Shown here one piece after another: positions 6,886 through 44,636 of a stretch of DNA of 64,000 bases (the first letter of the stretch is position 1; the number at the start of each line of letters is the position of its first letter). Below the pieces are notes generated by a model, which was not told the origin of the DNA, did no database searches, and saw nothing but the letters and a program-made list of their open reading frames with translations. A program made the position numbers and the translations under genes. The stretch is from Truepera sp. bin119. GTDB lineage: Bacteria > Deinococcota > Deinococci > Deinococcales > Trueperaceae. Where the stretch lies: the NCBI GenBank assembly GCA_002239005.1, contig MPNL01000005.1:1-64000 (forward strand), read 5' to 3'.

Positions 6886-8337
6886 TCAGGTGTCGGACCC
6901 GGGCATGGCGGCATACCTGTAGAGCAGATCTACGAACGACCCTTCGAGTTCAACAACCCCGCCGACCCTGCCATCACCTTCGGTGACGAGGAACTCATTG
7001 CCCTCGGAGTGGCCGCTAGCATAGCCCATCCCGGCACCGCCGAGCACCTTCAGCCCCAGCATCTGGCTGAAGTAGCCGCTGGGACCGCTCGCGCCCCGCC
7101 GTGGCCACAGCACCGGATCGAGATCCCGCGCCCGGTAGCTTTGCACCGCCGCCTGCGCCAGATCGTCGCGGAGGTCGATGGACTGGGCACCGACCGACAT
7201 GAGCACCTCGAGGTGGATGTCGTCATAGCCGTGGCGGTCGAGGTGCTCGCGGATCTTTTCGGTGCACCTCTCGGGGTCGAGGTCCGGAGGCAGCCGGTGG
7301 TCGATGGTGCATTGTGCGGACGCGGGCAGGGTCCATAAGGTCGTGCCGGGACCGGTGTAGCCGGCCCACAGGCCGTTGATGTTCATCGTCGGCAGAAAGC
7401 AGTAGCGCCGAAAGATCTCGGCATCGGCAGCGTCGCCCACCCACCGAGCGACACGTTCGGGATTGCCGATCCCGGGGATGGCACTCGCTTCCTGACCGGC
7501 GTAGCGCTCGGCCAGCGCGTCGATGAGGGCGAGATCGTCGTCGCTCGGTTCCCGCAGGCCGTCGCTAAAGCCGTCGACCAGGATGCGGTGTTCCTGTGGG
7601 TCGTAGAGGGTCGAAAGCGCGTGCACCAGGCGCCAAACCGGGTGGTCCACCACGCCCATGGTTGAGGAGTGGACGGGGCCACCCCTCGGGCCCCGCCCCC
7701 AATGATCGCCGGAGCAGGTGAGTTCGATGTGGAGGCAGCCCTTGTTGCCGAGCGGCAGCATGACCTCGCCCCCCTCGGACTGGCAGGGACCGGGCGACAC
7801 CAGTCCGTCTGCTCGGGAGAGGTGATGGCGGTAGCGGTCGATCAGTTGAGGAATGTGGACACTGCCGACGAACTCTTCGCCCTCGCAGAGGAACATGAGA
7901 TTCACCGGCAGGGTTCCCTCGACCGCTTTCATGGCGGAGAGGGCATTGAGAAAGGCGATGAGGCCTCCCTTGTTGTTGCCGCCGCGGCCGTAGAGCACCT
8001 CTTTGAAGGGGGGGCGTGGGGTCAGCACCCCCGCGTAGGGATCGTGATCCCAGCCCCCGCCGACGATGTTGGAATCGAAATAGCCATAGACCGCCAGCGT
8101 TTTGGGGGCGCCGGCATCGAAATAGGCCCACACCGCAGGCAGGTTCGGCGTCTCGGCGATCTCGGCCTCCTGGCAACCCAACTCCTGGAAATATGACAGT
8201 AGCAGGGCCGCGCACTCTCGGACCCCGTGGTTCTCCCGGCTGATGCTCGGCTGCATCAGGAAGGTCCTGAGGCGGCTCAGGTGGTCCTCCCGGTGCGCAC
8301 GGATGAAGGCGTGAATCTCGCTGGGTTGTATCGACAC
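6886..8337 (-). CDS. M20-like peptidase homologue with altered metal ligands
   Basis: An M20 (carboxypeptidase/dipeptidase) family protein of 483 residues, first gene of the minus-strand operon. The family needs two zinc ions held by H, D, E, D/E and H. Here the first histidine position reads VYGYFDS instead of a GHxD-type sequence, and the bridging aspartate region reads GRGGNNKGG instead of GRGxxDDKG. The catalytic CEGEE pair and a C-terminal SGHSEGNEF histidine remain. It may therefore bind metal differently or not at all. The GTG start at 8337 is preceded by GGGAGAG; the open frame upstream of it is low-quality. A paralogue with still fewer ligands lies at 36742-38217. No signal peptide. 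Confidence 0.8.
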   Translation of the reverse strand: MSIQPSEIHAFIRAHREDHLSRLRTFLMQPSISRENHGVRECAALLLSYFQELGCQEAEIAETPNLPAVWAYFDAGAPKTLAVYGYFDSNIVGGGWDHDPYAGVLTPRPPFKEVLYGRGGNNKGGLIAFLNALSAMKAVEGTLPVNLMFLCEGEEFVGSVHIPQLIDRYRHHLSRADGLVSPGPCQSEGGEVMLPLGNKGCLHIELTCSGDHWGRGPRGGPVHSSTMGVVDHPVWRLVHALSTLYDPQEHRILVDGFSDGLREPSDDDLALIDALAERYAGQEASAIPGIGNPERVARWVGDAADAEIFRRYCFLPTMNINGLWAGYTGPGTTLWTLPASAQCTIDHRLPPDLDPERCTEKIREHLDRHGYDDIHLEVLMSVGAQSIDLRDDLAQAAVQSYRARDLDPVLWPRRGASGPSGYFSQMLGLKVLGGAGMGYASGHSEGNEFLVTEGDGRVGGVVELEGSFVDLLYRYAAMPGSDT

Positions 8338-8921
8338 CGTGATTCTCTCCCGATCGACTCCGCCTCTGCGGAAGCCTTCCCCAGGCTGCCCGGCTGTGGC
8401 AGAGCGCGGGTTTCCGAGTGATGTACGGGGAAATCCCAAAGCCGGGATGCCAAAAAGCCCTGACGTCCCCTCATCGACGTATGGAAGGTATGCTACTATA
8501 TCAGACTGGCTACTAGGCAAGTTGCCGCTTGAGAACAGGCTGTCGTGCCGCTTTACCGGCACGGAGTTCTCGACGCTTTAGTTCCGGTGTGCTCTTCCCC
8601 TTAACCTGGTAGCCTCAGGGTTTTCTCGACACCAGCGAGCGGTTCGAAATCCATTTCTAAGGAGCGTTCCAATCTTCGATTCGCCAGCTAAAGAGTGTTC
8701 CCTCCAGTCTCCCGTCTGCGCCGGTGGTGTGTGGCGGCGATCTCCTCTGCTCTGCCCGCCCCGTGATCCGGTGCAGGTAAGGTTAGGTGATTGCATGGCG
8801 TAGCCTGAGGCTGGTATGGTGCCCCGCAATCGCTCGCTGCATTCCAGAGGGCACCGATCATTGCAAACAGATAATGGGGATTAGGCGACCTAGAGCGAAC
8901 TTTACGATAGAGGAGATATAG
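8338..8921. other. Divergent intergenic region
   Basis: About 584 bp between two divergently transcribed units, the M20 operon (minus) and ABC importer 1 (plus), so it should hold promoters for both. No protein-like frame stands out and I could not identify a convincing -35/-10 pair. The plus-strand gene has a clear GAGGAGAT ribosome binding site right at 8910-8920. Confidence 0.45.
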
Positions 8922-25938: not shown

Positions 25939-27465
25939 TTGAAACGAGCCCTTCGACCAGTCATCGGCCTGATCGCCACCCTCGGTCTCATGCTCCCTCT
26001 GGGGGGCCTAGCCCAAGAGGTCGAGCCCGAGGTTCGCGCGGCCTACTTCCGGGACTTCCGCAATCTGGATCCGGCACACCTGCCGGGCTCGCCCGATTAC
26101 CAGATCGCCATGAACGTTTACAGCGGGCTGGTCCGCTACAAGCTCGGCTCGACCGAGGTCGAAGCAGACCTGGCCGAGGTCTGGGAGATCTCCGACGACG
26201 GCCTGGTCTACACCTTCTACCTGCGTAACGATGTGCAGTGGCACCACGGCTACGGGCGGTTCACCGCCCACGACGTCAAGTACACCTTCGAGCGGGTGCT
26301 CGATCCTGCGGAGGAGTCTCGCTACCGGGCCGGCATGTCTCTCATCGAATCGGTCGAGGTCATCGACGACTTTACGGTTCGGCTCACCCTCAGCAAGCCC
26401 TCCGCCTCGTTCCTGACCACCCAGCTGGCGTTCCGGCCCGGTTATATGGTCAACCGGCAGGCGATCGAGGATTTCGGCGAGGACTATTCGTTCAATCCGG
26501 TCGGGACCGGGCCGTTCCAGTTCGTCAGCTACACCCCGAGGGAGAACCTGATCCTGGAGGCCTTCTCGGACTTCTACCGGGGTGAGCCGGCGGTCAAGAG
26601 GATCGTCTGGAACATCATACCGGACGAGACCGTCGCCGCTCTGGCCCTCCAGCGTGACGAGGTGAACTACATGATCCCCCGCGACGTGGAGGTGTGGCAG
26701 AACCTCAAGGCCGCTACCGGGATCGCCATGACCGAGACCGTCACCACCGGCTACTGGCACTACACCTTTAACACCTCGCGGTCGCCCTTCGACAACGTCC
26801 TGGTAAGGCGGGCTGTCGCCCACGCGATTAACAAGCAGCTCTTTGTCGACGCCCTGCTGGAAGGGCTGGGGGCGCCGGCCAACACCGTCATCGCCAACGG
26901 CATGATCGGCCACACCGACGATGTAGCCACCTACGACTACGATCCCGAACAGGCTCGGCTTCTCCTCGCCGACGCCGGTTACCCCGCTGGCCTCAGTGCG
27001 AACGTCGTCTATGATGGCGGCAGCCGGTTCGCGGCGCTCCTGGCTACGGCCCTGCAGGGGTGGCTGGCCGAGGTCGGGATCGAACTCGAGTTGATCGGCG
27101 TCGAGGCGGGTGCCTGGACCGCCAGGCGTCAGTCGGGCGACTACGACATCACCATCAGCGGTGTCACCCGCGCCGATCCGGACCAGATCCTGACCGAGCA
27201 GTTCCACTCCACTAACTTCCCGCCCGGCGGCAACCAGTCGTTCTACGGGGCTATCGACGACCTCATTGAGGCCCAGCGGGTGGCGGTGAGCAACGAGGAG
27301 CGGGCCTCTATCCTGGTCGAAATCCAGCAGCGGATCGCCGAGGATGTGCCCGAACTGCCGGTGTTCCAGCCGGTGTACGTTACCGCCTACGCCGACTACC
27401 TCTCCGGGGACGCCCCCAATCACATCCACTGGATGACGCTGTTCGAACATCTCGAGTTCCAGTAG
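25939..27465 (+). CDS. ABC importer 2: peptide/nickel-type substrate-binding protein
   Basis: Family 5 solute-binding protein (508 residues) with a signal peptide ending at GGLAQEVEPE. Typical segments are VYTFYLRNDVQWHHGYGRFTAHDV, NPVGTGPFQFVSY, and a C-terminal lobe ending in NHIHWMTLFEHLEFQ. The TTG start is supported by AAGGAGGAG just upstream. It precedes its two permeases (121 and 28 bp gaps). It is only distantly similar to the importer 1 protein, so the ligand is probably different. The upstream nitrilase-family amidase gene is 44 bp away and likely in the same operon. Confidence 0.93.
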   Translation: MKRALRPVIGLIATLGLMLPLGGLAQEVEPEVRAAYFRDFRNLDPAHLPGSPDYQIAMNVYSGLVRYKLGSTEVEADLAEVWEISDDGLVYTFYLRNDVQWHHGYGRFTAHDVKYTFERVLDPAEESRYRAGMSLIESVEVIDDFTVRLTLSKPSASFLTTQLAFRPGYMVNRQAIEDFGEDYSFNPVGTGPFQFVSYTPRENLILEAFSDFYRGEPAVKRIVWNIIPDETVAALALQRDEVNYMIPRDVEVWQNLKAATGIAMTETVTTGYWHYTFNTSRSPFDNVLVRRAVAHAINKQLFVDALLEGLGAPANTVIANGMIGHTDDVATYDYDPEQARLLLADAGYPAGLSANVVYDGGSRFAALLATALQGWLAEVGIELELIGVEAGAWTARRQSGDYDITISGVTRADPDQILTEQFHSTNFPPGGNQSFYGAIDDLIEAQRVAVSNEERASILVEIQQRIAEDVPELPVFQPVYVTAYADYLSGDAPNHIHWMTLFEHLEFQ

Positions 27466-27585
27466 CGGCTAGGCCGGCTTGGCTAAACCGACCCGGGTCG
27501 GGATGAAGCGACCGGGTGAATCGGGGGGCGGGGCAACGGTGTCGGCGTTGCCCCGCACTCTGGATTGGCAGGGTGTCGAGAGGGT

Positions 27586-28533
27586 ATGTGGAAGTACGTA
27601 CTGCGTCGATTCCTGATCACCGTCCCCACCATCTTTGGGGTCATCACGCTCGCTTTCTTGATGATCCGGCTGGCACCCGGCGACCCCGCCGAGTTGTTGC
27701 TCGGAGACTATGTGGGGATCAGCGCCGAGGTGCTCGAGGACCTCCGCAGGAAGATCGGGGTCGACCGACCCTGGTATGTCCAGTACCTCTTCTACCTGCG
27801 GGATTTCCTGACCGGCGATCTTGGGACCTCATTCCGCACCGGCCGACCGGTGCTTCAGGAGATCGTCTCCCAGTTCCCCTTCACCCTCATGCTGGCCGTC
27901 GCCGGGGTGGTCTTTGCCGTCGTTATGGGGGTGCCGACGGGCGTCTTGGCGGCCATGCGCCGCAACAGTTGGCTCGACTATATCTCCACTACCCTGGCGA
28001 TGGTCTGGGTCTCGAGCCCCAGCTTCTGGTTCGGCATCCTGCTCATCTATGTGTTCGCCTTCCTGCTGGGTTGGTTCCCGGTCTTCGGCGCCGGCAAGGG
28101 GGGCAACTGGGGGAGTCTGGCGCTGCACTTGGTGCTCCCGGCGATCGCGGTCGGGGCCCGGTCAGCGGCCCTGATCACCCGCATCTCCCGCTCCGCCATG
28201 CTGGACATTCTCAGCCTCGACTACATCCGCACGGCCCGGGCCAAGGGGGTGGTCGAGCGACTGGTGGTGTATAAGCACGCGCTGCGGAACGCTCTGATCC
28301 CCATCATCACCGTGATCGGTCTCGACATGGCCTACCTGCTAAGCGGCACTGTGATCATCGAGACCGTCTTCTCCCGCCCGGGGCTCGGCAAGTACGTTAT
28401 CGACGGGGTCTACGCTCGGGACTATTCCACCGTCCAGGGCGGCATTGTCGTCTTCGCCATCTTCGTCCTCTTGGTCAACCTCCTCGTCGATCTGAGCTAC
28501 GCCGTGATCGATCCCCGGATCCGCTACGCGTAG
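27586..28533 (+). CDS. ABC importer 2: permease (DppB type)
   Basis: Inner-membrane permease of 315 residues. It starts MWKYVLRRFLITVPTIFGVI (typical DppB start, with GAGAGGG upstream of ATG 27586) and continues with APGDPAELLLGD. The ATPase-docking loop is DYIRTARAKGVVERLVVYKHALRNALIP, and the end is SYAVIDPRIRYA. About six membrane helices. Partner of the DppC-type gene 28 bp downstream. Confidence 0.93.
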   Translation: MWKYVLRRFLITVPTIFGVITLAFLMIRLAPGDPAELLLGDYVGISAEVLEDLRRKIGVDRPWYVQYLFYLRDFLTGDLGTSFRTGRPVLQEIVSQFPFTLMLAVAGVVFAVVMGVPTGVLAAMRRNSWLDYISTTLAMVWVSSPSFWFGILLIYVFAFLLGWFPVFGAGKGGNWGSLALHLVLPAIAVGARSAALITRISRSAMLDILSLDYIRTARAKGVVERLVVYKHALRNALIPIITVIGLDMAYLLSGTVIIETVFSRPGLGKYVIDGVYARDYSTVQGGIVVFAIFVLLVNLLVDLSYAVIDPRIRYA

Positions 28534-28561
28534 TGAGAAGTCGGCCGGGCGCGTCGCCAAG

Positions 28562-29428
28562 ATGCTAGATCTCCTGCGCAGGATCTGGCTCCGCAAGAGC
28601 GCGGCCATCGGTTTGATAGTAGTTCTGCTGATCGTGCTGGTCGCCCTGCTGGCACCGCTAATCGCTCCCGAAGACCCGAATCGCCAGGACCTGATGGGGA
28701 GGCTCCAATCGCCGAATTGGGAACACTGGCTCGGCACTGACAGTTTCGGTCGTGACCAGCTCAGCCGGCTCATCTTCGGTGCCCGCATCTCGCTGATGGT
28801 GGGGGTGGTGGCGGTGGCTTTGGCCGCCTTCCTCGGCGGTGCGATCGGTCTCCTTGGCGGCTACTATGGTGGTGGGATCGATAACGTACTGATGCGGCTG
28901 ATCGACGTGCTCATGGCGTTCCCGACCCTGCTCCTGGCGATCGTGTTCCTGGCGATGCTGGGCGAGCGCCTCGGGGGGCTATCTAATATCATGGTCGCTG
29001 TGGGGGTGGCCAGCACCCCGCACTTCGCCCGCTTGGTGAGGGGGCAGGTACTCAGCATCAAGGAGCAGGATTTTGTCGAGGCGGCGCGGGCGCTTGGAGG
29101 GTCGGCCGGGCGCCTGATGGTGCGGCACATCCTGGTGAATAGCCTCTCGCCGGTGATCGTATTCGCCACGCTGCGGGTGGCGACCGTGATCCTGACCGAG
29201 GCCAGCCTGAGCTTCCTCGGCCTCGGGGTACCCCCACCGACTCCGACTTGGGGGGGGATGGTTGCGGAGGGTACCAGGTTCCTGCAGCGGGCGCCCTGGC
29301 TATCCCTGATCCCCGGGGTGGCCATCATGGTTACGGTGCTGGCCTTTAACCTCTTCGGGGACGGCCTCCGCGACGCCCTCGATCCCAAACTCAGAGGGGT
29401 CGGTGACGTCTCGGCCCGCGAGTACTGA
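28562..29428 (+). CDS. ABC importer 2: permease (DppC type)
   Basis: Second permease, 288 residues, with WLGTDSFGRDQLSRLIFGAR, the docking loop QDFVEAARALGGSAGRLMVRH and the ending LFGDGLRDALDPKLRG. Again no ATPase genes follow; the next 630 bp hold no clear gene. The importer would need ATPase subunits encoded elsewhere. Confidence 0.93.
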   Translation: MLDLLRRIWLRKSAAIGLIVVLLIVLVALLAPLIAPEDPNRQDLMGRLQSPNWEHWLGTDSFGRDQLSRLIFGARISLMVGVVAVALAAFLGGAIGLLGGYYGGGIDNVLMRLIDVLMAFPTLLLAIVFLAMLGERLGGLSNIMVAVGVASTPHFARLVRGQVLSIKEQDFVEAARALGGSAGRLMVRHILVNSLSPVIVFATLRVATVILTEASLSFLGLGVPPPTPTWGGMVAEGTRFLQRAPWLSLIPGVAIMVTVLAFNLFGDGLRDALDPKLRGVGDVSAREY

Positions 29429-30057: not shown

Positions 30058-31338
30058 GTGCGCGAAATCGCCTTTCGTCCGGTGGTTACCCAGGAGATGA
30101 AAGAGGCTGTGATCCGGGCACTCGAGAGCGGCCGCTACATCCGCACCGACCCGGACAGCGACTCTGAAGGGAAGCGGTTCGAGAGCGAGCTCGCAACCTT
30201 CTTTAGAGCCCCCGACGGTCGGGTCCCCAAGATTGCCAATCTGAGTTCCGGCACCGCAGCCATGCACCTCGCTTGGCTGGTCTACGGCGTGGGGCCCGGC
30301 GACGAGGTGATCATCCCTGCCAACACCTTTAGCAGTGTGGCCGATTGCGTCTGGCTGGTAGGTGCCGACCCGGTAGCGGTCGATGTTGAGGAGGATACCT
30401 CGAACCTCGACCCGGACGCCCTGGAGGTGGCGATCACCCCTCGCACCCGGGCTGTCATGCCGGTCCACACCGCCGGTCACCCGGCCGATATGGACCGGAT
30501 CATGGCGATTGCGGAGCGCCACGACCTGCTGGTGATCGAGGATGCCTGCCAGGCGGTCGGTGCCCGCCACCTTGAACGGGCGGTAGGCACCATCGGAGCT
30601 ATGGGCTGCTACAGCTTCGTGCAGAATAAGGCGATGACCACCGGGGGCGAGGGGGGTGCCGTCGGGTCGTTCGATACCGAGAAGGTCCAGCGGGTGTTCG
30701 ACCTCGCCAACCACGCCCGGGGCAAGGGCTTCCGCCGGGGGGGGCGGGGCGGCGTTTCGGTACCGAAGAGGTCCAGGGGGGTTTCCGCCTCGCCAACCCC
30801 CGCCGGGGGAAGGGCTTCCCGCGGGGGGGGGCGGGCCGGCGACGCCTACCGTTCGGTCGAGCACGATGGGGTCGGCTACCTCTACCGCCAGTCCGAACTC
30901 CTCACAGCCGTCGGCCGGGTGCAGCTTCGCCTCCTCCCCGGATGGATCGAAGAGCGCCGTCGCTGGGCGGAGCAGTACCATGAGCGGCTCGCCGACCTCG
31001 ACATCGAGATCGGCCTGCCGGCCGAGCGCGACTACGCCTACCACGCCTACGTCCGCTTCCAGATCCGGGCTCCAAGGCGCGACGACCTGAAGCGTTTCCT
31101 CATGGAGCGGGGCGTCCAGACCAAGGTCCACTACCCGACCCCGATTCACTTGGACCGCCTCTACCGGGAGCGTTACGGCGCCCGGGAGGGTCAGAATCCT
31201 GTCACCGAGAGGCTGGCGCAGCACACCCTGTCGCTACCCCTCTACCCGCAGATGAGTGAGGACGACGTCGACTATGTGGTCAGGGCCATTCGTGAGTTCT
31301 ACGCGAAGATTCCGACCCCGGTCTCAGCATCGGTGTAA
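30058..31338 (+). CDS. DegT/DnrJ/EryC1 aminotransferase 1, with an inserted degenerate duplication
   Basis: Fold-type I PLP enzyme of the sugar aminotransferase (SMAT) family, which aminates keto-sugars (or, in some members, related substrates). It has NLSSGTAAMHLAW, the PANTFSSVAD segment, VIEDACQAVGARHL with the PLP aspartate, and the lysine in CYSFVQNKAMTTGGEGG. Residues about 231-260 form a garbled, G/R-rich insertion that copies the preceding 29 residues in another frame (DNA offset 86 bp). Without it the protein is of normal length. The total insertion keeps the frame, so the gene reads through. GTG start with AGGGAGAGGAG upstream. First gene of the large cluster. Confidence 0.85.
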   Translation: MREIAFRPVVTQEMKEAVIRALESGRYIRTDPDSDSEGKRFESELATFFRAPDGRVPKIANLSSGTAAMHLAWLVYGVGPGDEVIIPANTFSSVADCVWLVGADPVAVDVEEDTSNLDPDALEVAITPRTRAVMPVHTAGHPADMDRIMAIAERHDLLVIEDACQAVGARHLERAVGTIGAMGCYSFVQNKAMTTGGEGGAVGSFDTEKVQRVFDLANHARGKGFRRGGRGGVSVPKRSRGVSASPTPAGGRASRGGGRAGDAYRSVEHDGVGYLYRQSELLTAVGRVQLRLLPGWIEERRRWAEQYHERLADLDIEIGLPAERDYAYHAYVRFQIRAPRRDDLKRFLMERGVQTKVHYPTPIHLDRLYRERYGAREGQNPVTERLAQHTLSLPLYPQMSEDDVDYVVRAIREFYAKIPTPVSASV

Positions 31339-31349
31339 GGGGGCTGGTA

Positions 31350-32231
31350 GTGAGCAGCGGTGCCTGGCGCGAGCGGTACGTCGATATCGACGGAGTGAGG
31401 ACCCACTACCTTGAGGCCGGTGAGGGGGAGACCATCCTGCTCATCCATGGGGGCGGGGTGTGGAGTTGTGCCGAGCTTAACTACGGTCCGGTATTCCCCT
31501 GCCTGAGCGACCACTTCCGGGTCGTTGCGGTGGACGTTCCAGGCTTCGGACTCACCGACGGCCGGGCGCCCCAGCATTTCTCCGAGACGGCCAGGGGCGA
31601 CTTTCTGGTCAGATTCCTGCGCAGCCTCGGAACGAAGGTCCATCTCGGCGGGAACTCGGTCGGCGGCTGGCTGGCTCTCTACCTCGCTCTCGAGGTGCCT
31701 GAGCTAGTCCAGAGCCTCCACCTGATCAACAGCGGCAGTGTCGTGGTCAGCGACCGCAGAGACGACGACGAGACCCGTTACGACCCCCGCTGGGCGGTTC
31801 CGGCGACCCGTCCTACCGCCGCCTGGGTCCGCCGGGAGTTGCGCGAGTTCTACCTTAACAGCGCTGTCATCACCGACGAACGGGTCGAGCTCACCCTGGC
31901 GATGGCCAGTCGCAACTACGACTTCGCTGTGGCACGTCAGCTGGCGACCGGCACCACTTCCGAGGAGCGCAACCGCTACCTCTGGTATCGGGGCAGGCCC
32001 ATCTCTGAACATGTGGGGACTTTGGCCATGCCGGTTCTGGTCAGTTGGAGTCGGGAGAATCGGGGGGCCTCGGTGGCCCAGGCGCTCCCCACTTTCGACC
32101 GGCTCGCCGCCGCTGAGATGCACGTCTGGGTGGGGGCGGGCCATCATGTGCAGGTCGAGTACCCCGAGAGTTGGTCGGCAGTGGTGAGGACCTTCATCGA
32201 GACCCGGGCTGGGCCTGGTGGGCGGCGGTGA
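31350..32231 (+). CDS. Alpha/beta-fold hydrolase
   Basis: A 293-residue alpha/beta hydrolase of the C-C bond hydrolase/haloperoxidase-like class. It has the oxyanion-hole HGGGVWS, nucleophile elbow GGNSVGGW (serine), a cap region in the middle, and the catalytic histidine in VGAGHHVQVEYP. It resembles meta-cleavage product hydrolases in layout. The GTG start lies 11 bp after DegT 1, and the stop overlaps the next start (TGATG). Its place between two DegT genes suggests it removes an ester or acyl group from the same intermediate. Confidence 0.85.
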   Translation: MSSGAWRERYVDIDGVRTHYLEAGEGETILLIHGGGVWSCAELNYGPVFPCLSDHFRVVAVDVPGFGLTDGRAPQHFSETARGDFLVRFLRSLGTKVHLGGNSVGGWLALYLALEVPELVQSLHLINSGSVVVSDRRDDDETRYDPRWAVPATRPTAAWVRRELREFYLNSAVITDERVELTLAMASRNYDFAVARQLATGTTSEERNRYLWYRGRPISEHVGTLAMPVLVSWSRENRGASVAQALPTFDRLAAAEMHVWVGAGHHVQVEYPESWSAVVRTFIETRAGPGGRR

Positions 32232-33346
32232 TGACTGCCCCACGCCGCGTTGAGCAGCGCCTGACCGTCATCGATGATCAGATCCGGAATAAGGTCCTCG
32301 AGGTCCTCGAGCAGACCCCCTACTACGCCGGGCCGGAGACTGCGGCCTTCGAGCGGGAGGTGGCGGCCTATTGCGAGACGGGCTGCGGGGTCGCCGCCAA
32401 CTCGGGCACCTCCGCCCTGCTTCTCGCTCTGATGGCCCTCGGTGTCGGTTCGGGCGATGAGGTCATCCTGCCGACCCACACCTTCGTTTCGGTCCTCGAG
32501 TCGGTCCTGGCGGTCGGTGCCACACCGGTACTTAGCGATGTTGAGCAGGATGGCAACTTGAGCCGAGACATTGTCGAGCGGCACCTGAGCGGCCGGACCC
32601 GGGCGCTGATCCCCGTGCACATGTACGGTCATCCGGTCGAGATGGATCCGGTCCTGGAGTTGGCGCGGGAGCGCGACCTGTTGGTAATCGAGGACGCTGC
32701 CCACGCCCTGGGTGCCCGCTACCGGGGGCGGCGCGTCGGGGGGCTGGGTCACGTCGGCTTCTTCAGCTTCGCCGGCAAGTCGATCACCGTCTGCGGCCAG
32801 GCCGGCATGGCGGTCACGGGAGCGGCGGAGTTGGCCGAGACCATGGCGTCGCTGCGGGTCCACGGCTGGCGGCAGCGCCTAGGCAACGTCTGGCACGTAG
32901 CCGAGCACGTCGGCCTCAACTTAAGGACCAGCGAACTCCTCTCCGCCATCGGCCGACTGAATCTCACTAGACTAGACGGCTGGACCGCGGCCCGGACCGC
33001 CAACGCCACCCAGCTCTCGGCGCTGCTGGCCGAGCGCGAAGTCCCGGTCGAAATCCCCCGAGCCCGCGACGGTTGTGAGCCCGGCTGGCTCCACTACGTG
33101 ATCCGGGCGCCGCAGCGCGACGAACTGAAGGCGTTCTTAGCGGAGCGGGGCGTCGAGACCAACATTCACTACCGGCTGCCGCTGCACCGGCAGCCCGCCT
33201 TCGCGGAGTTCTCACCCGGGCCGCAGGCGTTTCCCGTCGCGGAAGGGCTCTTGCGCGAGATCCTGACGCTGCCTTCGCACCCCTGGCTGTCCGGCGACGA
33301 TCTCCACTACATAGCCGATATGGTCGCGGCCTTCTACCGCAGCTGA
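32231..33346 (+). CDS. DegT/DnrJ/EryC1 aminotransferase 2
   Basis: A 371-residue DegT-family PLP enzyme, complete. It shows CGVAANSGTSALLLALMALG, LPTHTFVSVLESVLAVGATP, VIEDAAHALGARYRGRR and the lysine in FFSFAGKSITVCGQAGM. The ATG at 32231 shares one base with the upstream stop. Sequence divergence from DegT 1 and 3 is large, so the three are not a recent duplication and probably act on different substrates or form a mixed complex. Confidence 0.92.
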   Translation: MTAPRRVEQRLTVIDDQIRNKVLEVLEQTPYYAGPETAAFEREVAAYCETGCGVAANSGTSALLLALMALGVGSGDEVILPTHTFVSVLESVLAVGATPVLSDVEQDGNLSRDIVERHLSGRTRALIPVHMYGHPVEMDPVLELARERDLLVIEDAAHALGARYRGRRVGGLGHVGFFSFAGKSITVCGQAGMAVTGAAELAETMASLRVHGWRQRLGNVWHVAEHVGLNLRTSELLSAIGRLNLTRLDGWTAARTANATQLSALLAEREVPVEIPRARDGCEPGWLHYVIRAPQRDELKAFLAERGVETNIHYRLPLHRQPAFAEFSPGPQAFPVAEGLLREILTLPSHPWLSGDDLHYIADMVAAFYRS

Positions 33347-33416
33347 GCAGGGAGAGTTCTAGGCTGCCTGCACCGAGCACGCCCCCTACCGGCTGTCGCT
33401 GGCGAAAGGAGTAGCG

Positions 33417-33590
33417 ATGAAGAGAGTCCGTATATACCCCGCTCCTCATCCTGGCCTGTCTAGTCCAGTTCGAAACCCTGCTCGACCTCGACCGCTGCGG
33501 ACTATGTTCCCCCTGAGCGGCCCTGCTAAGTTTCCGGGCGGGTGCGGAGTCGGAATCGACTCGGCACCCGCTTCGCGGCGGGGCTCATGA
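33417..33590 (+). CDS. Candidate small protein translationally coupled to DegT 3
   Basis: A 57-codon frame with a strong GAAAGGAG ribosome binding site five bases before its ATG. Its TGA stop overlaps the ATG of the next gene (ATGA). These two features argue for translation. The product (MKRVRIYPAPHPGLSSPVR...) is proline/arginine-rich and unlike anything I know. In a neighbouring frame the same DNA reads TPLLILACLVQFETLLDLD, which resembles a signal-peptide start, so this may instead be a decayed gene with a frameshift just after codon 6. Either reading is uncertain. Confidence 0.3.
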   Translation: MKRVRIYPAPHPGLSSPVRNPARPRPLRTMFPLSGPAKFPGGCGVGIDSAPASRRGS

Positions 33591-34747
33591 ACGTCCCGAT
33601 CCGTTACCGGGTGACCTGGACCCCGTTCGACGCGGAGATGCGCGAGGCGCTGCTGCGGCCGGTCCCGGGGCCGATCCACTACGACGGTCCCGAGGTCGAG
33701 GCCTTCGAGGCCGAGGCGGCGGCCTACCTGGGAGTCGACCACGCCGTGGCGGTTGCCTCGGGCACCGCCGCTCTCCATCTGGCGCTGCTGGCCCTCGACA
33801 TCGGCCCGGGCGACGAGGTGCTGATGGGGGCCAACGCCTATGTGGCCCTGCCCGAATGCACACTCCAACTCGGGGCGCAGCCGGTCTACTGCGACGTGCA
33901 CGCGGAGACGGCGAACCCCGACCGGGAACTCCTCGAGCCGCTGGTGAGCGACCGGAGCAAGGCGATCCTGATCGTCCACTACTTTGGCAACCCCGTCGAC
34001 CTCGATCCGATCCTCGAGCTGGCGCGTGAGCGCGACCTGTTCGTCATCGAAGATGTCGCCCACGCCCTCGGCGGGGAGTACAAGGGACGGAAGCTGGGCA
34101 CCCTTGGCGACATCGGCTTCGCCAGCTTCGCCCGCAAGATCATCCACGTTGCGGGCCAGGGGGGGATGGCCTTTAGCGGTCGTGCCGACCTAGCCGACCG
34201 GATGCGGAGGCTGCGCAAGCACGGTTGGGAGCTTGGCGATGAGGAGCTGACCCGGATCAGTGAACTCGGCTACAACTATTCGTTCAGCGAGTGCCTCGCC
34301 GCCGTCGGCCGGGTCGGCCTCTCCCGGATCGAGCGGTACTGGCAGGAACGGGAGCGGAACGCGCTGCGCTTTAGTCGCGCCCTGGAGGGGCTCGGGGTTC
34401 CGGCGCGTCCCCTGCTCGCCTCCCCCTGGGGCCGCCATGGTCGACTCCACTACGTGATCCGGGTGCCGCGGCGGGATGAACTCAAGAGCTACCTCGCCGA
34501 CCGGGGGGTCGAGTGCAAGGTCCACTACCGGCAACCCGTCTACCGGCTACCCCACTATCTGGCCCGGTCGGGGCGGGACCCGGGCCCTCGGCCGGTAACC
34601 GACCGCCTTGCCAGGGAGATGATCACCCTCCCCAGCCATCCCGATATGGGAGAGGGGGTCGACGAGATTGTGGATATGATAGCGGAGTTCTACGCTACGA
34701 CCTCAGGCGAGAGCTGGGGAGAGGAAGGGAGAGTACGAGATGGATGA
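33587..34747 (+). CDS. DegT/DnrJ/EryC1 aminotransferase 3
   Basis: A 386-residue DegT-family enzyme. It shows AVASGTAALHLALLALDIG, LMGANAYVALPECTLQLGA, VIEDVAHALGGEYKGRK and the PLP lysine in FASFARKIIHVAGQGG. ATG at 33587 (MNVPIRYRVTW) was preferred over the upstream GTG because of the ATGA overlap with the small frame and family length. It ends inside the start of the M28-like gene (8-bp overlap). It probably transfers an amino group to a keto-sugar or similar carbonyl. Confidence 0.92.
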   Translation: MNVPIRYRVTWTPFDAEMREALLRPVPGPIHYDGPEVEAFEAEAAAYLGVDHAVAVASGTAALHLALLALDIGPGDEVLMGANAYVALPECTLQLGAQPVYCDVHAETANPDRELLEPLVSDRSKAILIVHYFGNPVDLDPILELARERDLFVIEDVAHALGGEYKGRKLGTLGDIGFASFARKIIHVAGQGGMAFSGRADLADRMRRLRKHGWELGDEELTRISELGYNYSFSECLAAVGRVGLSRIERYWQERERNALRFSRALEGLGVPARPLLASPWGRHGRLHYVIRVPRRDELKSYLADRGVECKVHYRQPVYRLPHYLARSGRDPGPRPVTDRLAREMITLPSHPDMGEGVDEIVDMIAEFYATTSGESWGEEGRVRDG

Positions 34748-36419
34748 GTCGGGAGTACTGATTCACGAAGAGTTGTCGGGTGAGCGGGCCCAGGAGATCA
34801 CCGCAGAGATCACCCGCTACCACCGGCCCCCCGGCGCGGCGGGCTACCACGCGGCCACCTCGTACGTCGCGGAGTGCCTGCGCGCGGGGGGTGTTACCGA
34901 GGTCTCCGAGGAGACCTACCCCCTCGACGGCGAGACCCCGACCCCGGGCGGCGGGGCTCCGTTACCGCCGTCCTGGGAGCCGTACGGGGCTGAGGTGAGG
35001 GTGGTCACGCCCACCCCCGAACCGGTGGTCGACCTGGCCACCGCCCCGTCGAGCCTGGCCTGGTGGTCGTGGCCGACCCCGCCGGGGGGGGTTACGACCG
35101 AGCTCGTCGACGTGGGGACCGGTATGGAGGAGAGCGATTTCGAGGGCAAGGAGGTGCGTGGCAAGGTCGTATTCATCGGCCATACCGATCGGCGGGCCTC
35201 CTGGGTCTATGCTGCCAACCAGGCGCTCGAGCGAGGGGCAGCGGGCATCCTCACCGACTATCTGCTCTACACCTCCGAGCCCTACCGCACCCGCGAGAAG
35301 CTGCCGGACGCGGTCCAGCTGCTCCGGATGCCGAGCCGGATGGGCAAGTACCGGGCCTGGACCTGCGCGGTCTCGCACACCACCGGCCAGCGGCTCCGGC
35401 AGCTACTCAGGCTGGGCCCGGTACAGATCCATGCCGATATCCGCTGCCGCGTCTTTAAGGGTGAGGGCCGCAACCTGCTCGCCTCCATCCCCGGGCGCGA
35501 ACTGCCTGAGGAGTCGGTCTACTTCGTGGCCCACACCTCCGCCGCCACCTGCCCCTGCGCCAACTGCGCCGCCGGCCCCGCGCTGATGGTCGAGATCGCC
35601 AGGACGCTCCAGCGGCTGATCGACAGCGGGCGGCTCCGGCGCCCGCGCCGGTCGATCAAGTTCCTGTTCATCGTCGAGGGGAGCGGTTCGAGCACCTACG
35701 TCAAGACCCACCCCGACGAACTCCCCAAGATCAAGACGGCCTTCTGCTTCGACAGTGTCGGGCACGATCAGGACAAACTCAAGTCGGTGCTGCTCTTCTA
35801 CCGTCATCCCGACTCCAGCCCGTCGTTCATCAACGACTATTTCGCCGAGGTGATGGAGCGCGCCCCCCGGGATGCCTCGTGGGTGTTCAGAGATGGTAAC
35901 GACATCTCGCTGGTGCAGTTCGTCCAGGCCCCCTACACACCCTGGAGCGACAACCATACCCTGGCCGCCTACGGGATTCCGAGTCCGCTGATCATGTCCT
36001 GGCCCGACCGCTATTTCCACACCCAGCTTTTGACCGCGGACAAGACCGACCCGCAGGTGTTTCGGCGGGCGGGGGTGACCTCGGCGCTCGCCGCCTATGA
36101 GATCGCCGATGCGGGGTCCGAAGAGGCGCTGCGGATCGGTCGCACGGTAGCCGCTAGGAGCCGCTTCCGACTCGAGCAGTTGGCCACGGCTGGCGAGCGG
36201 AGGCTAGCCGGGCGCCGTGGTGACGGTTCGGGAGCGGCGCTGGAGCGGCTACGTCGGGAGCTCGACTATTTCACCCGGCGGGACATAGAGGCGCTCCGCT
36301 CCGCCCTCGGTCTCATTCCCGGCGGGGCCAGCCCCGAGGCGAGGGAGGCACTCGAGGCCGAGGAGCAGATGCTTAACGGGACCGCAGAACGCCTGCTCGC
36401 CAGATTGGGGGATAACTGA
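34740..36419 (+). CDS. M28-like protein with PA domain and altered metal site
   Basis: A 559-residue protein laid out like M28 aminopeptidases with a protease-associated insert (EVRGKVVFIGHTDRRASWVY, about 140-160). At the zinc site, where M28 enzymes have AHxD...NDxASG, this reads VAHTSAATCPCANCAAG (about residues 262-278): the histidine is kept, but the aspartates are replaced and three cysteines are clustered. Later motifs are FIVEGSGSS (glutamate region), CFDSVGHD and YFHTQLLTADKTDP (second histidine). It may bind metal through cysteines, or be a non-enzymatic binding protein. A charged C-terminal helix of about 120 residues follows. Its stop overlaps the PqqD-like gene. No signal peptide. 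Confidence 0.75.
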   Translation: MDESGVLIHEELSGERAQEITAEITRYHRPPGAAGYHAATSYVAECLRAGGVTEVSEETYPLDGETPTPGGGAPLPPSWEPYGAEVRVVTPTPEPVVDLATAPSSLAWWSWPTPPGGVTTELVDVGTGMEESDFEGKEVRGKVVFIGHTDRRASWVYAANQALERGAAGILTDYLLYTSEPYRTREKLPDAVQLLRMPSRMGKYRAWTCAVSHTTGQRLRQLLRLGPVQIHADIRCRVFKGEGRNLLASIPGRELPEESVYFVAHTSAATCPCANCAAGPALMVEIARTLQRLIDSGRLRRPRRSIKFLFIVEGSGSSTYVKTHPDELPKIKTAFCFDSVGHDQDKLKSVLLFYRHPDSSPSFINDYFAEVMERAPRDASWVFRDGNDISLVQFVQAPYTPWSDNHTLAAYGIPSPLIMSWPDRYFHTQLLTADKTDPQVFRRAGVTSALAAYEIADAGSEEALRIGRTVAARSRFRLEQLATAGERRLAGRRGDGSGAALERLRRELDYFTRRDIEALRSALGLIPGGASPEAREALEAEEQMLNGTAERLLARLGDN

Positions 36420-36745
36420 TGGAAGCCCGTCTCGACGACATCCCGCGCCGGCTCGCCGGCGGAGTCGGCTCCGCACTCGAGGGGCTCGACTACTTCGCGC
36501 AGGACGCGATCTACCGGTCGATGGTGGCTCAGGATCCGAGCTTCATATTCGACTCGCTGCGGCCGATCGGTGACGAGTTCTGGAATCTCATCAATGGCGA
36601 GCGGACCTTCGCCCAGATCGCCGACGCCCTTAGCTTCCAGTTCGATTTCGAGCTGGATCAGGAGCTGTTCTTGCCCCTGGCTGCCGGCCTGCTCCGGGAG
36701 GGACGTATCGAACTCTCGCCCCGCGAAGCGGAGGGGGAGGCATGA
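36419..36745 (+). CDS. PqqD-like small protein (RiPP recognition element fold)
   Basis: A 108-residue acidic protein. Residues about 45-95 fit the PqqD pattern: FDSLRPIGDEFWNLINGERTF, then AQIADALSFQFDFE, then LFLPLAAGLLREGRIEL (a hydrophobic residue, xGxxTxxEIAxxLxxxFD, and a final L-xx-GLI). PqqD-type domains bind leader peptides for modifying enzymes. No radical SAM or other classic RiPP enzyme and no obvious PqqA-like peptide is nearby, so the role here may be to recruit a substrate for the flanking M28-like and M20-like proteins, with which it overlaps at both ends (1 and 4 bp). The assignment is by pattern, not by search. Confidence 0.6.
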   Translation: MEARLDDIPRRLAGGVGSALEGLDYFAQDAIYRSMVAQDPSFIFDSLRPIGDEFWNLINGERTFAQIADALSFQFDFELDQELFLPLAAGLLREGRIELSPREAEGEA

Positions 36746-38217
36746 CCGTCGACCTCGATCGGGTGTTCGCCCACATCGACGGCGCCATCGAGGATCATAT
36801 CGCCGAAGTGCAGGCCTGGGTGCGCCAGCCGAGCGTGAGCTGGGACAGCCTGGGGGTAAGCGAGTGTGCCGAGCTGGTGGCCCAGTCCTACCTCGACCTC
36901 GGCTGCTCGGAGGTAGAGGTTATCGAGGGGCGCCACCACCCCGGGGTGTGGGCCTACTACGACGCCGGATCCCCGGTTACCGTTCACAACTACTGCATGT
37001 TCGACACCCGCACCGTCAGGCCTGACGAGTGGTCGTTCGACCCCTGGGGAGGGGAGTTGATGGCGCAAGGCCCCTACCCCAGGGTCTTGACGGGGCGGGG
37101 CGCACTGTCTGCCAAGGGGCCCTACGTGGCCTTCCTCAACGCTCTGCGCAGCATCATCGCCGTCGAGGGGGATCTGCCGGTCAACATCATGTTCCTGGCC
37201 GAGGGCGAGGAGATCATGGGCAGTCCCAGCTACCGCGACTTCGTGGCCCGCTACCAGGACCGGCTGGCCACGGTCGCCGCCAGCTACTGCCTGACCAGCA
37301 GCCAGAGCGCCGCCGGGGTCGTCTCGGTCGGACTGGGGCTCAAGGGGATGATCGTGCTGGAGCTGTCGGCCTCCGGTGCCGCCATGGAGCGGGGACCGGG
37401 CGCCACCATCCATAGCTCCGCGGCCTCGCTGGTCGACAGCCCCCCCTTCCGGCTGGCCCAGGCGCTCGCCACCCTTACCGATGAGCAGGGGCGGGGCTGC
37501 CGGGTGCGGGGCCTGGAGGGGGTGATGGCCTACCGCAAACCGCTGGACCAGGAGGAGCGTCGGCTCCTCGACGACCTGGCCGAGCGCCAGGCCGGGCGCG
37601 ACTGGCGCGACGTCCTCCCCGTCGGCGGGAGCGGGAACGTCGACCGGCTGGTCGGGGGCAGCGAGGGGATCGATCCGCTGCTGAGTTTCCTCTACGGACC
37701 CAGCTTCAACCTGGCCGGCCTGCGCAGCGGCTTCCTCGGTCCGGGCAGCGCCACCATCCCCTTCATCGTGCCCCAGCGGGCCACCGCCACCCTCGACATG
37801 CGGTTGGTGGTCGAGTCCTCACCGGAGGAGATCATCGGTCTGATCCGCGATCACCTGGACGCCCACGGCTTCGCCGATATCGAGATCGAGGTGTACGCCG
37901 CCTTCAGCCACCACCAGACCCCCGCCTCGCACCCCTACATCCAGACCGTGCTCGGTACCCTTGGGGACTGGGGTGTGGAGGTGGAGTTATGGCCGATCCA
38001 GGCAGGTGGAGGCCCCTGGACCGTGGTTCCCAACAGCTTCGGGGTGCCCTGTCTCCGGGGCGGCGTGGTCGGCGGCGGCTCCGGCGGCAAGGGGGGGACG
38101 GACGAATACCTGATCATCGAGGGGGACGGCAAGATGGCGGGCCTCGCCGAGGTCGAGAAGCTGCAGGTGGCCCAGCTTAGCGCTTTCGCCCAGGCGGCGG
38201 CAGCCGAGGCCCCTTGA
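36742..38217 (+). CDS. M20-like protein lacking zinc ligands
   Basis: A 491-residue paralogue of the M20-like gene at 6886-8337 (shared segments VWAYYDAGSP, VAFLNAL, LPVNIMFLAEGEE). Zinc ligands are largely gone: VHNYCMFDT replaces the GHxD motif, GRGALSAKGP replaces GRGxxDDKG, and the C-terminal histidine region reads GGKGGTDEYL. Only the EGEE pair persists. It is likely a pseudoenzyme or has a changed chemistry. It is coupled at both ends by 4-bp overlaps to the PqqD-like gene and the isochorismatase-fold gene, implying a shared complex or pathway. Confidence 0.8.
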   Translation: MTVDLDRVFAHIDGAIEDHIAEVQAWVRQPSVSWDSLGVSECAELVAQSYLDLGCSEVEVIEGRHHPGVWAYYDAGSPVTVHNYCMFDTRTVRPDEWSFDPWGGELMAQGPYPRVLTGRGALSAKGPYVAFLNALRSIIAVEGDLPVNIMFLAEGEEIMGSPSYRDFVARYQDRLATVAASYCLTSSQSAAGVVSVGLGLKGMIVLELSASGAAMERGPGATIHSSAASLVDSPPFRLAQALATLTDEQGRGCRVRGLEGVMAYRKPLDQEERRLLDDLAERQAGRDWRDVLPVGGSGNVDRLVGGSEGIDPLLSFLYGPSFNLAGLRSGFLGPGSATIPFIVPQRATATLDMRLVVESSPEEIIGLIRDHLDAHGFADIEIEVYAAFSHHQTPASHPYIQTVLGTLGDWGVEVELWPIQAGGGPWTVVPNSFGVPCLRGGVVGGGSGGKGGTDEYLIIEGDGKMAGLAEVEKLQVAQLSAFAQAAAAEAP

Positions 38218-38906
38218 GATTGAGGCACCCGCTCCCGCTGCTGACCCGCGAGGTTCCCCCCCTCGAGCTTCGCCTGGGCGACTCCTGTCTGCTGCTGCAG
38301 GACCTGCATGCACCGTTCGCCGACCCGGAGCAGGGGTGGCTGGCCCGCCGCGCCCGGGCCAAGGTCCTCGGGGCGGAGTTTAGCGAATACTTCCGGGCCG
38401 TGAGGGAGCTGGCCCCCAACGTCGTGAAGCTGCTGGCGGCCGCCCGCGGGGCGGGCCTGACCGTGCTCTATAGCTGCTTCGGGTTCCGCCCCCCCGTCTC
38501 ACCTTCGCCGCTGCAGGCCGCCCTGGGCTGGGAGTGGGACCTGTCAGGGCCCGAAGGCCGCTTCCCACCCGCTCTGGAGCCGGTGGCGGGGGAGGGGGTC
38601 TATCCGCGGCCGGGCTGGGGCGCCCTCTCCGAGCCGGGGCTGGCCCGCTTCCTGCAGGAGCGTTCGATCCGTAGCGTGGTACTGGTCGGGACCCTGCTCG
38701 ACTTCGGCCTGCGCCATAGCTGCTGGCAGCTGGCCGATCAGGGGGTGGGCAGCCTGGTCGTCTCCGACGCGGTGGCGCCGCTCACCCTGGCGGGCGAGGC
38801 CTGCACCCACGGCAACCTCGCCTGCGGCCTCACCAAGTTCCGCACCACCGCCGAGCTACTCGATCTGCTGCCCCCCCTGGCGGTGGGCGGCGTCGTCCGG
38901 ATCTAG
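38214..38906 (+). CDS. Isochorismatase-fold hydrolase
   Basis: A 230-residue cysteine-hydrolase/isochorismatase fold protein, related to nicotinamidase and N-carbamoylsarcosine amidase. The catalytic aspartate is present in LLLQDLHAPFADP. The usual catalytic cysteine (GxxTxxCVxxT) is replaced: VLVGTLLDFGLRHSCWQLADQG, with glycine at that place. Isochorismatases proper also lack the cysteine, so it could act on a vinyl-ether or be inactive as an amidase. TTG start overlaps the previous stop by 4 bp. Confidence 0.8.
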   Translation: MRLRHPLPLLTREVPPLELRLGDSCLLLQDLHAPFADPEQGWLARRARAKVLGAEFSEYFRAVRELAPNVVKLLAAARGAGLTVLYSCFGFRPPVSPSPLQAALGWEWDLSGPEGRFPPALEPVAGEGVYPRPGWGALSEPGLARFLQERSIRSVVLVGTLLDFGLRHSCWQLADQGVGSLVVSDAVAPLTLAGEACTHGNLACGLTKFRTTAELLDLLPPLAVGGVVRI

Positions 38907-38916
38907 GGAGGCGCCG

Positions 38917-39882
38917 ATGATCCAGAGCGTTCTGGGCCCGGTCCGACCCGCTGAGTTGGGGGTCTGTCTGCCGCACGAGCATATCTGGTGCGATCAGCTG
39001 CTGGCGCCCCGGCGTGAACTGCTGGGTACCCGCACCGGCTCCGGGGTCTTCATGCAGCTGCTCGACTTCGAGGCGATGGTGGCGGAGCTGGGCGCCTTCC
39101 GGGAGGCGGGGGGTGGTGCCGTGGTCGAGGTGACCTGCGACGGCTGGGGCCGGGACCTGGAGGTGCTGGCCCGCCTCTCCGAGGCGAGCGGGGTGCATAT
39201 CGTCGCCACGGCGGGGTTCTACATCGAACCGTGCATGCCGGCCTACGTCGCCGAGCTGTCGGCCGAGCAGCTCGGCGACCGGCTGACCCGGGAGCTGCTC
39301 GAGGGGGTGGGGCCGGCCCGCCGTCGCTGCGGGGTGCTCAAGTCTGCCATCCACCGGGCCCGGGTCGAGGGGCTCGAGCGCAAGGCGTTGCTGGCGGTGG
39401 CGGCGGCCCAGCGGCGGACCGGGGTGGCCATCACCACCCATACCACCGGCCGGCGGCGCCAGGAGGTCAAGGGGGGGACCGTGGGGGTGGAGCAGCTGGA
39501 GATCCTCAAAGAGGAGGGGGTGCCGGCCTCGCGGCTGATTGTCGGGCACGTCGATGAGCGCCCGGATGTCGATATCCTCACCGGGTTGGCGGCGCAGGGC
39601 TGCTTTATCCAGTTCGACGTCATCGGCAAGGAGCACTGGCTGCTCGACCAGACCCGAGCCGAACTGATAGGGGAGTTGATCCGGCGGGGCCAGCTCGAGC
39701 AGCTGCTGCTATCGCACGACGTCAACCGGGAACATGAGCTGCTCCGGGGTGGCGGCGGTGGCTACTGTCACATCTTCACATCGTTCCTAGGGCGCCTTGA
39801 GGGGGTAGGGGTCACCCCGGAGGAGATCCGGACCATGATGGTGAGCAATCCGGCCAGGGCCCTCACGCCGGCACCGGTTTAG
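38917..39882 (+). CDS. Phosphotriesterase-family metal hydrolase
   Basis: A 321-residue amidohydrolase-superfamily protein of the phosphotriesterase/lactonase branch. The metal ligands are all visible: CLPHEHIWCD (HxH), the bridging lysine in CGVLKSAIH, histidines in AITTHTTG and IVGHVDERPD, and the aspartate in LLSHDVNREHEL. Such enzymes in metabolic clusters often open lactones or hydrolyse sugar phosphates. With complete ligands it is probably active, unlike the M28- and M20-like neighbours. AGGGAGG precedes its ATG, 10 bp after the previous stop. Confidence 0.9.
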   Translation: MIQSVLGPVRPAELGVCLPHEHIWCDQLLAPRRELLGTRTGSGVFMQLLDFEAMVAELGAFREAGGGAVVEVTCDGWGRDLEVLARLSEASGVHIVATAGFYIEPCMPAYVAELSAEQLGDRLTRELLEGVGPARRRCGVLKSAIHRARVEGLERKALLAVAAAQRRTGVAITTHTTGRRRQEVKGGTVGVEQLEILKEEGVPASRLIVGHVDERPDVDILTGLAAQGCFIQFDVIGKEHWLLDQTRAELIGELIRRGQLEQLLLSHDVNREHELLRGGGGGYCHIFTSFLGRLEGVGVTPEEIRTMMVSNPARALTPAPV

Positions 39883-42908: not shown

Positions 42909-44636
42909 CCTTGGATCCCGTCACCACCAGCGTTATCGGCTACGCCATGAACGCCAGCGCCAGGGAGATGGGCGTCAACCTCTATCAGGCCGCCCACTCC
43001 ACCATCGTCCGGGAGATCCGCGATATCGGCACCGCCATCTTCGACGCCGACGGCAACACGGTGGCGATGGCCAACTGGATCCCCATGCTCTCCAACGCGC
43101 TCGAGCCGGCCATTCAGGCGATCAAGCGGCACTACGACCCCAGGGAGCTCGAACCGGGCGAGGCGCTCCTCACCAACGACCCCTTTGACGGCGGCCAGCA
43201 CGTCAACGACATCCTGCTCTATACGCCCGTCCACCACCGGGGGCGGGTCATCGCCCTCTCCTGCGCCAACGTTCACCACCTCGATGTCGGTGGCGGGGCT
43301 CCCGCCTCGAACGCTCGGGCCACCGAGGTGTTTCAGGAGGGGATCGTCTTCCCCCCCATCCAGATCCGGTTGGGGGGGCACCGCCTCCCCCCCCAGCAAG
43401 AGCGGGTTGGGGGAGGACTGGCCCCGCAGCCCCTTCGGCAAGATCCTGGCCGTCAACATCAGGGCGCCGGAGAAGACGATCCCCGACTTCGACGCCCAGA
43501 TCGCCGCCTGTCGCACCGGGGAGCGGCGGGTGCTGGAGCTGGTGGCGCGTTATGGGGTGGAGACCATCCTCGAATTTATGAGCGAGATCCAGGCTCACTC
43601 GGAACGGCTGGTCCGGGCCGCGATCGCGGAGATTCCCGATGGCTGCTACCGGGGTGAGGCCTTCATGGAGGACGACGGCTCGGGCGCCGAAGGGCCGTTC
43701 ACCATCAGGGTGGCGGTCTGGGTCGAAGGGGGGGGGATGAGGGTAGACTTCCGCGCTACCGATCCCCAGGCCCGCGGTTTTATCAACGTCCCGCTGGCGT
43801 CGACCTACTCGACGGTGCGGACCACCATCATGTCGATCCTGGGCATCGATATCCAGTTCGTCAACGCCGGCGCCTTCCGACCCATCGAGATCGAGGCGCC
43901 CCCGGGCTGCCTGGTGAACCCGCTGCGGCCGGCGGCCACCCGGGCGCGGACCAGCACCTGCTACAAGATCTTCGACGCCGTCAACTACGCCCTCGCCGAG
44001 GTATTGCCTGAGCGGGTAGCGGCCCCCGGCTTCGACGCCCAGACCGGCCTCTCCCTCGCCTACGGCGATCCCGAGGGGGCGATGTCTATCTTCAGTGAGG
44101 CCCTCGGGGCGGGTAACGGTGGACTCCACAACCAGGATGGGGCCGACGGCATGATCATGCACCTGACCAACGCCGCCAACACCCCGGTGGAGGCTGTCGA
44201 GATCGAGCACCCCTTCCTCGAACTGCTCCACTACCGACTGGTCCAGGACAGCGGCGGCCCCGGTCGCTACCGGGGCGGGATGGGGTTGGAGCGGGCCTTC
44301 CGCCTCCACGCCGACGGGGTGGTGGTCGGGCTGCACTCCGATCGGCACCGCCATAGCGCCGCCGGCCTGTTCGGCGGCCAGCCGGGCTGGCCGGGTCGCT
44401 GCGCGGTCGAGCGTAACGGCGCCGAAGAGGTCCTCGGCTCCAAGGTCCACGCCACCCTGCAGGCGGGGGATGTGCTCACGGTCCGTACCGGTGGCGGTGC
44501 CGGCTACGGCCCCCCTGAGGAGCGTGCGCTCGAGCGGGTGCTCGCCGACCTCCGCGAGGGGCGGATCTCGCAGGAGCAGGCCGATTCAGAGCGGGGTTAC
44601 CGCCTGGCCGGCCGCCGCTCGGTGAGGACGGACTGA
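42905..44636 (+). pseudogene. hyuB: Hydantoinase/oxoprolinase B subunit, frameshifted by a 37-bp imperfect duplication
   Basis: Partner of HyuA, starting MTLDPVTTSVIGYAMNASAR with the family's opening and overlapping hyuA by 4 bp. Frame 1 is good to EGIVFPPIQIR (about 43370) and then turns into nonsense. The family sequence resumes in another frame at FGKILAVNIRAPEKTIPDFD (about 43433) and runs to 44636. Between them, a C7...GGTTGGGGGGG segment is repeated imperfectly 37 bp later (C runs at 43351 and 43387, GGTT at 43368 and 43405). Either an inactivating duplication or an assembly error. If corrected, the product is of usual length. Confidence 0.85.

Follow-up and report, generated by a model that had tools for sequence, protein, structure and literature searches.

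The closest described counterpart of the locus reported here is CA_C2195 (PDB 3k9t), in which a one-zinc metallopeptidase-like domain has an insert derived from PA and is followed by a C-terminal winged helix engaged in trimer contacts (PMC4000134). Its domain make-up is DUF4910, DUF2172 and HTH_47, its zinc ligands are His, Asp and His, and its homologues have been found in sugar-modification operons (PMC4000134). With CA_C2195, a DUF4910/M28-like protein that ends in a winged helix is already known. A second point of reference is the RiPP recognition element (RRE), which is defined by three helices and a three-stranded sheet to which the leader peptide is added as a fourth strand; fusions of RREs to peptidases are known in lasso peptide pathways (PMC7470986).

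The window analyzed here, a 64,000-nucleotide stretch of Truepera sp. bin119 DNA, encodes a 108-aa PqqD-like protein between an M28-like and an M20-like gene (Table 1). We consider it reasonably probable that this protein is a separate, coupled winged-helix module of a DUF4910-type M28-like unit handling an imported peptide- or amide-like compound. The identity of the module, its fusion in relatives, the altered residues and the gene neighbourhood are all read from sequence.

Table 1. Features of the window that bear on the PqqD-like gene.
Feature	Position	Strand	Basis
108-aa PqqD-like winged-helix module, corresponding to the C-terminal domain that is fused in relatives; coupled in translation (TGATG, ATGA)	36419..36745	+	
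M28-like (DUF4910-type) protein, 559 aa: N-terminal part, PA-like insert, M28-like domain, helical C-terminal region	34740..36419	+	
M20-like pseudopeptidase, 491 aa	36742..38217	+	Pfam M20_dimer and Peptidase_M20; PDB 2pok, 4mmo
Isochorismatase-family amidohydrolase, recurrent neighbour	38214..38906	+	Pfam E 4e-17
Phosphotriesterase-family hydrolase, recurrent neighbour	38917..39882	+	Pfam PTE E 2.2e-61
Opp/Dpp-type transporter: solute-binding protein family 5 and two permeases	25939..29428	+	Pfam
Three DegT-family aminotransferases and an alpha/beta hydrolase, local context	30058..34747	+	
Second M20-like pseudopeptidase, adjoining a solute-binding protein family 5 gene	6886..8562	-	Pfam; 466 bits (M20-like profile)

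The PqqD-like module

The 108-aa ORF, which starts with ATG, is a real gene in a tight operon. The M28-like ORF ends in ...aacTGATGg, its TGA overlapping the PqqD-like ATG by 1 bp, and the PqqD-like ORF ends in ...gcATGAcc, giving a 4-bp overlap (ATGA) with the M20-like ORF. Its codon-position GC is that of the surrounding operon genes. Because the gene and its pairing with the M28-like gene are conserved in other phyla and in archaea, they are not due to chance. The initial annotation had described a 108-residue protein with the PqqD pattern and overlaps of 1 and 4 bp, and the ORF coordinates, both overlap motifs and the PqqD similarity agree with that description.

Taken alone, the window protein matches PqqD (PF05402) over residues 46-76 only, with E = 0.0016 and 19.2 bits, which is below the curated cut-off of 23.4 bits. 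The PqqD-type similarity is supported at the family level. PqqD was the sole Pfam family matched, in 11 of 19 domain sequences (best E 1.6e-5), and in a six-frame search of 13 genomes four family members exceeded the curated cut-off (24.4-25.5 bits), this domain being the sole PqqD-like match in most of those genomes. A comparison of the family profile with PDB sequences gave only the PqqD structures 5sxy, 5vrd and 3g2b, all weakly (E 0.06-0.97). The confident model predicted for the 108-aa protein (pLDDT 93.3) shows four helices with two strands of 4 residues each, and a three-stranded sheet is not part of the prediction. Fold searches with the 108-aa protein gave no significant PDB match, the weak matches including the RRE structures 5sxy, TruD, LynD and TbiB1. 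HTH_47 did not match the C-terminal domain in Pfam scans of the family and of its sister clade (described below) and was dropped as an identity for it.

The M28-like partner and its relatives

The M28-like protein of the window matches DUF4910 (PF16254) with E 4.4e-4 and 19.6 bits, under the cut-off of 26.6 bits. Its relatives match Pfam Peptidase_M28 (best 9.8e-10) and PA, the profile of the M28-like family finds 2ek8 (E 4.6e-12) and 3k9t (E 2.3e-4) among PDB sequences, and the predicted model of a fused relative resembles PA-containing M28 structures. A distant sister clade (L066-L072), from 400 Chloroflexota genomes searched, is approximately 30% identical to the window protein and passes the DUF4910 cut-off at 66.7-70 bits. 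The C-terminal domain of this clade is homologous to the PqqD-like domain (hhalign probability 96.3, E 1.6e-9). Both the PA-derived insert and the C-terminal winged helix of the CA_C2195 type are found here, the winged helix being a separate chain in the window.

A scan of a species genome collection yielded 17 real M28-like relatives, and one more came from a haloarchaeal plasmid; a Mycobacterium match (L030) of 27 residues was discarded. The relatives belong to Deinococcota, Chloroflexota, Thermomicrobiota, Armatimonadota, Clostridia, Acidimicrobiia and Halobacteria, and a strong-scoring M28-like protein was found in two of the 111 genomes searched in Deinococcota. Locus L013 is in a genome of the same family (G016, Trueperaceae bacterium bin86). 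This scattered taxonomic spread suggests horizontal transfer.

All 19 M28-like sequences compared are accompanied by the PqqD-like domain, although several are near-identical (L017/L018; L020-L022/L024), so that the independent lineages number fewer than 19, roughly a dozen. The domain is fused at the C-terminus in 15 of them (L004, L013, L016-L028) and is a separate gene in four (the window, L014, L015 and L029), where the split at L015 may be a frameshifted fused gene. The proposed coupling to the M28-like protein thus proved to be obligate in this set, and most relatives carry it as a fusion. When a tree is drawn from the M28 part, fused forms are intermingled with split ones, so that two changes or more are needed, and L013, a fused form from the same family (71% identical over tree columns), sits within the split clade. 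Fission of a fused ancestral gene, followed by re-fusion or a second fission, would be the simplest reading of this tree. A literature search found no paper on PqqD fused to M28.

According to alignments, the metal-site residues of the window protein are His265, Cys276, Glu313, Asp338 and His427. Invariant throughout the subfamily are His265 (the first metal His), Cys276 (at the position of the bridging Asp), the base Glu313 and the final His427. The position of Asp179 is occupied by Asp in most bacteria and by Cys in haloarchaea and Clostridia, that of Glu152 by Gly in nearly all members and by Glu in L015, and the Asp of HxD is lost. The subfamily accordingly lacks the full set of five metal ligands plus catalytic Asp and Glu of peptidase family M28. 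It also departs from the His, Asp, His zinc ligands of the CA_C2195 type, in that both His residues are kept and Cys takes the place of Asp in every member. In the sister clade the bridging residue is Asp (and Met stands where Glu152 would be), so the change from Asp to Cys looks derived within the subfamily. It is unlikely that the M28-like unit is a classical aminopeptidase; the unit appears to hold the residues for one metal site, without the second-metal Glu. The Cys may equally be read as metal loss.

The M20-like gene and other neighbours

In the M20-like protein of the window all five metal-ligand positions are replaced (His by Met86, Asp by Ser123 and Glu by Ile158, with the later Asp and His also gone), and the base-position Glu157 is retained. 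The ligands are intact in the canonical M20 proteins aligned with it. The five metal ligands of peptidase family M20 are missing from the neighbour and its close relatives, and judged from these replacements it is a conserved, catalytically dead pseudopeptidase. The initial annotation was right to regard both partners as peptidase-derived, because catalytic residues are altered in each.

An M20-like gene is adjacent to the M28-like gene in the window and at L004, L013, L014, L017, L018 and L029, lies about 8.5 kb away at L019, and is elsewhere in the genome for L016, L025 and L027. A strong member occurs in four of 11 M28-like genomes, versus one of 399 sampled Chloroflexota (Fisher p 1.4e-6, profile seeds excluded). 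This enrichment is no more than indicative, because a single phylum served as background and some of the rows are not independent. Neither L015, the L020-L022/L024 group, L023 nor L026 has a member of the subfamily; they gave only generic M20 matches. At L016, the M20 protein adjoining the M28-like gene has intact canonical motifs. With several genomes giving only generic M20 matches, a strict M28-like/PqqD/M20-like triplet was rejected; the suggested conservation of the triplet held as frequent M20-like linkage, but not as an obligatory M20-like gene.

M20-like genes also occur without an M28-like gene, often adjoining solute-binding-protein (peptide-transporter) genes. The second copy in the window lacks the metal ligands as well, and a third pseudo-M20 paralogue of the same genome (L061 8232-9674, +) is downstream of genes for OppB, OppC and a solute-binding protein. 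A further M20-family gene at 46929-48098 (+), with a strong Pfam match, has the motifs HMHPE and ACGHDGH, which we take to be typical of an active amidohydrolase-type M20.

Among the other neighbours of the M28-like gene, isochorismatase homologues occur at L013, L014, L019, L020-L022 and L029, and phosphotriesterase homologues (49-71% identical) at L014, L019, L020-L022 and L029. The closest solved relatives of the isochorismatase-family protein are biuret and cysteine hydrolases. Opp-type transporter homologues are near the gene at L004, L014, L015, L016, L019 and L029, and amidohydrolases at further loci. Apart from the PqqD-like module no gene is universal at these loci and the neighbouring enzymes vary, which leaves the pathway weakly constrained. 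A hydrophobic, signal-like N-terminus is present in the solute-binding protein but not in the M28-like, PqqD-like and M20-like proteins; the latter three therefore probably act intracellularly after import.

No conserved small ORF (18-120 aa, outside large genes) was found across the M28-like loci compared. The small ORFs that did match came from closely related loci or lay antisense to conserved genes, and a precursor peptide was rejected. As had been noted from the window, no RiPP modifying enzyme was found, and this extends to all neighbourhoods scanned.

Comparison with window genes revealed no HyuAB near other M28-like members. A creatinine/hydantoin-type pathway (HyuAB plus isochorismatase) was set aside in view of this absence. 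Hydantoinase B itself is in two overlapping frames, 42905-43657 and 43185-44636 (+), which cover profile positions 1-157 and 159-519; this is apparently one frameshift, from an assembly error or a pseudogene. Near it, a class I/II aminotransferase is also in two frames, 44642-45289 and 45082-45867 (+).

Proposed role, alternatives and known systems

Based on these observations, we infer that the PqqD-like module is the C-terminal winged helix (PqqD superfamily), encoded here as a separate, translationally coupled chain, and that the M28-like and PqqD-like chains most likely reassemble into a complex equal to the fused protein. The winged helix would mediate oligomerization, or would recognize a protein or substrate. 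Most likely the unit carries out an amidase- or transacylase-type step, or else binds substrate, and its substrate would belong to the peptide- or amide-like compounds imported by the Opp transporters. The isochorismatase and phosphotriesterase-family hydrolases would act alongside it, and in many genomes the dead M20 homologue may serve as a binding or scaffold partner.

Another reading, which we regard as unlikely, is modification of amino sugars or sugar amides: the M28-like protein, as has been proposed for CA_C2195, would make or break a modified sugar together with DegT aminotransferases and SDR epimerases. The window operon has, besides its three DegT genes, two SDR epimerase-type genes; the sugar-modification operons of CA_C2195 homologues point the same way, as does L016, from another phylum, where DegT, SDR and M28-like genes also occur together. 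Since DegT genes are common to the window and L016, this reading stays alive. However, L016 is the one other member near which DegT and SDR epimerase-type genes recur; other members were found without DegT nearby, the genes that do recur encode amidohydrolase-type hydrolases and peptide importers, and no glycosyltransferase or sugar nucleotidyltransferase was seen among the window genes scanned. The suggestion that the DegT aminotransferases, epimerases and hydantoinase are tailoring enzymes is for the same reason unsupported as a general feature, these genes not being conserved parts of the locus. The block common to Armatimonadota L016 (2799-19066) and the window (25939-46870) comprises the M28-like/PqqD pair (fused in L016), an Opp transporter, DegT (46-66% identity) and SDR genes, and it is possible that it is a transferred island.

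We give a small chance to the M28-like protein being a pure pseudoenzyme with a binding or regulatory role, like the transferrin receptor, its winged helix being regulatory or DNA-binding and controlling the island. The fold class is that of a winged helix, and the loss of the HxD Asp, the near-general loss of the Glu152 equivalent and the Asp to Cys replacement would all fit. In contrast, even distant members strictly conserve His, Cys, the base Glu and the second His and have either Asp or Cys where Asp179 would be, a pattern that points to a functional site. The sister clade retains Asp and other ligands. A comparably slim prospect is that a PqqD-type peptide-binding module outside RiPP biosynthesis passes imported peptide- or amide-like substrates on to an M28-type enzyme that is mononuclear and Cys-substituted, with help from the dead M20; if true, a two-pseudopeptidase processing complex would be common to bacteria and haloarchaea. 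Least probable of all, in our estimation, is the leader-peptide role first proposed, a true RRE presenting a leader or short peptide to the M28-like and M20-like proteins in an undescribed peptide-processing system: the sole Pfam match, the weak RRE fold matches and the lasso peptide fusions speak for it, but the two short strands, the small-ORF and modifying-enzyme results, an M20-like partner devoid of metal ligands and transporters of import rather than export type speak against it.

The 108-aa protein is thus most likely neither a free RiPP recognition element nor part of a peptide-antibiotic pathway. A PqqD-like gene beside peptidase-like genes need not mean a RiPP pathway, which is relevant to genome mining with RRE models. 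The locus also draws attention to an uncharacterized subfamily, conserved in haloarchaea as well as across bacterial phyla, whose M28-type metal site has Cys for Asp, and to a separate pseudo-M20 family, often adjoining peptide-importer genes.

Compared with PqqD/RRE (PF05402), the module shares a winged-helix core, a D-G-x-R-T-x-x-E-I-A type motif and four family members above the Pfam cut-off, but it differs in that no three-stranded sheet is predicted, in that neither precursor peptide nor modifying enzyme was found at its loci, and in being tied to an M28-like protein. The M20-like protein has the fold and dimerization domain of the M20 dipeptidase/carboxypeptidase family (2pok, 4mmo), whereas the subfamily adjoining the M28-like gene has all five metal ligands replaced. 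With PA-domain M28 aminopeptidases (2ek8, 6hc6) and the glutamate carboxypeptidase/transferrin receptor group, the M28-like protein has fold and PA insert in common; it departs from them in the bridging Asp, HxD Asp and metal Glu (now Cys, lost and mostly Gly) and in its additional winged-helix module. Like CA_C2195, it combines an M28-like domain with an incomplete, single-metal-type site, a PA-like insert and a C-terminal winged helix, it is no standard M28 peptidase, and in the window it has some sugar-enzyme neighbours. In contrast to CA_C2195, it has a DUF4910 match under the cut-off, PA in place of DUF2172, PqqD in place of HTH_47, a long helical region, Cys for the zinc-binding Asp, a winged helix that is sometimes a separate gene, a pseudo-M20 partner, and mostly peptide importers and amide hydrolases as neighbours. 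Taken together, these comparisons suggest that the window pair is most likely a variant of the known, functionally uncharacterized CA_C2195-type design.
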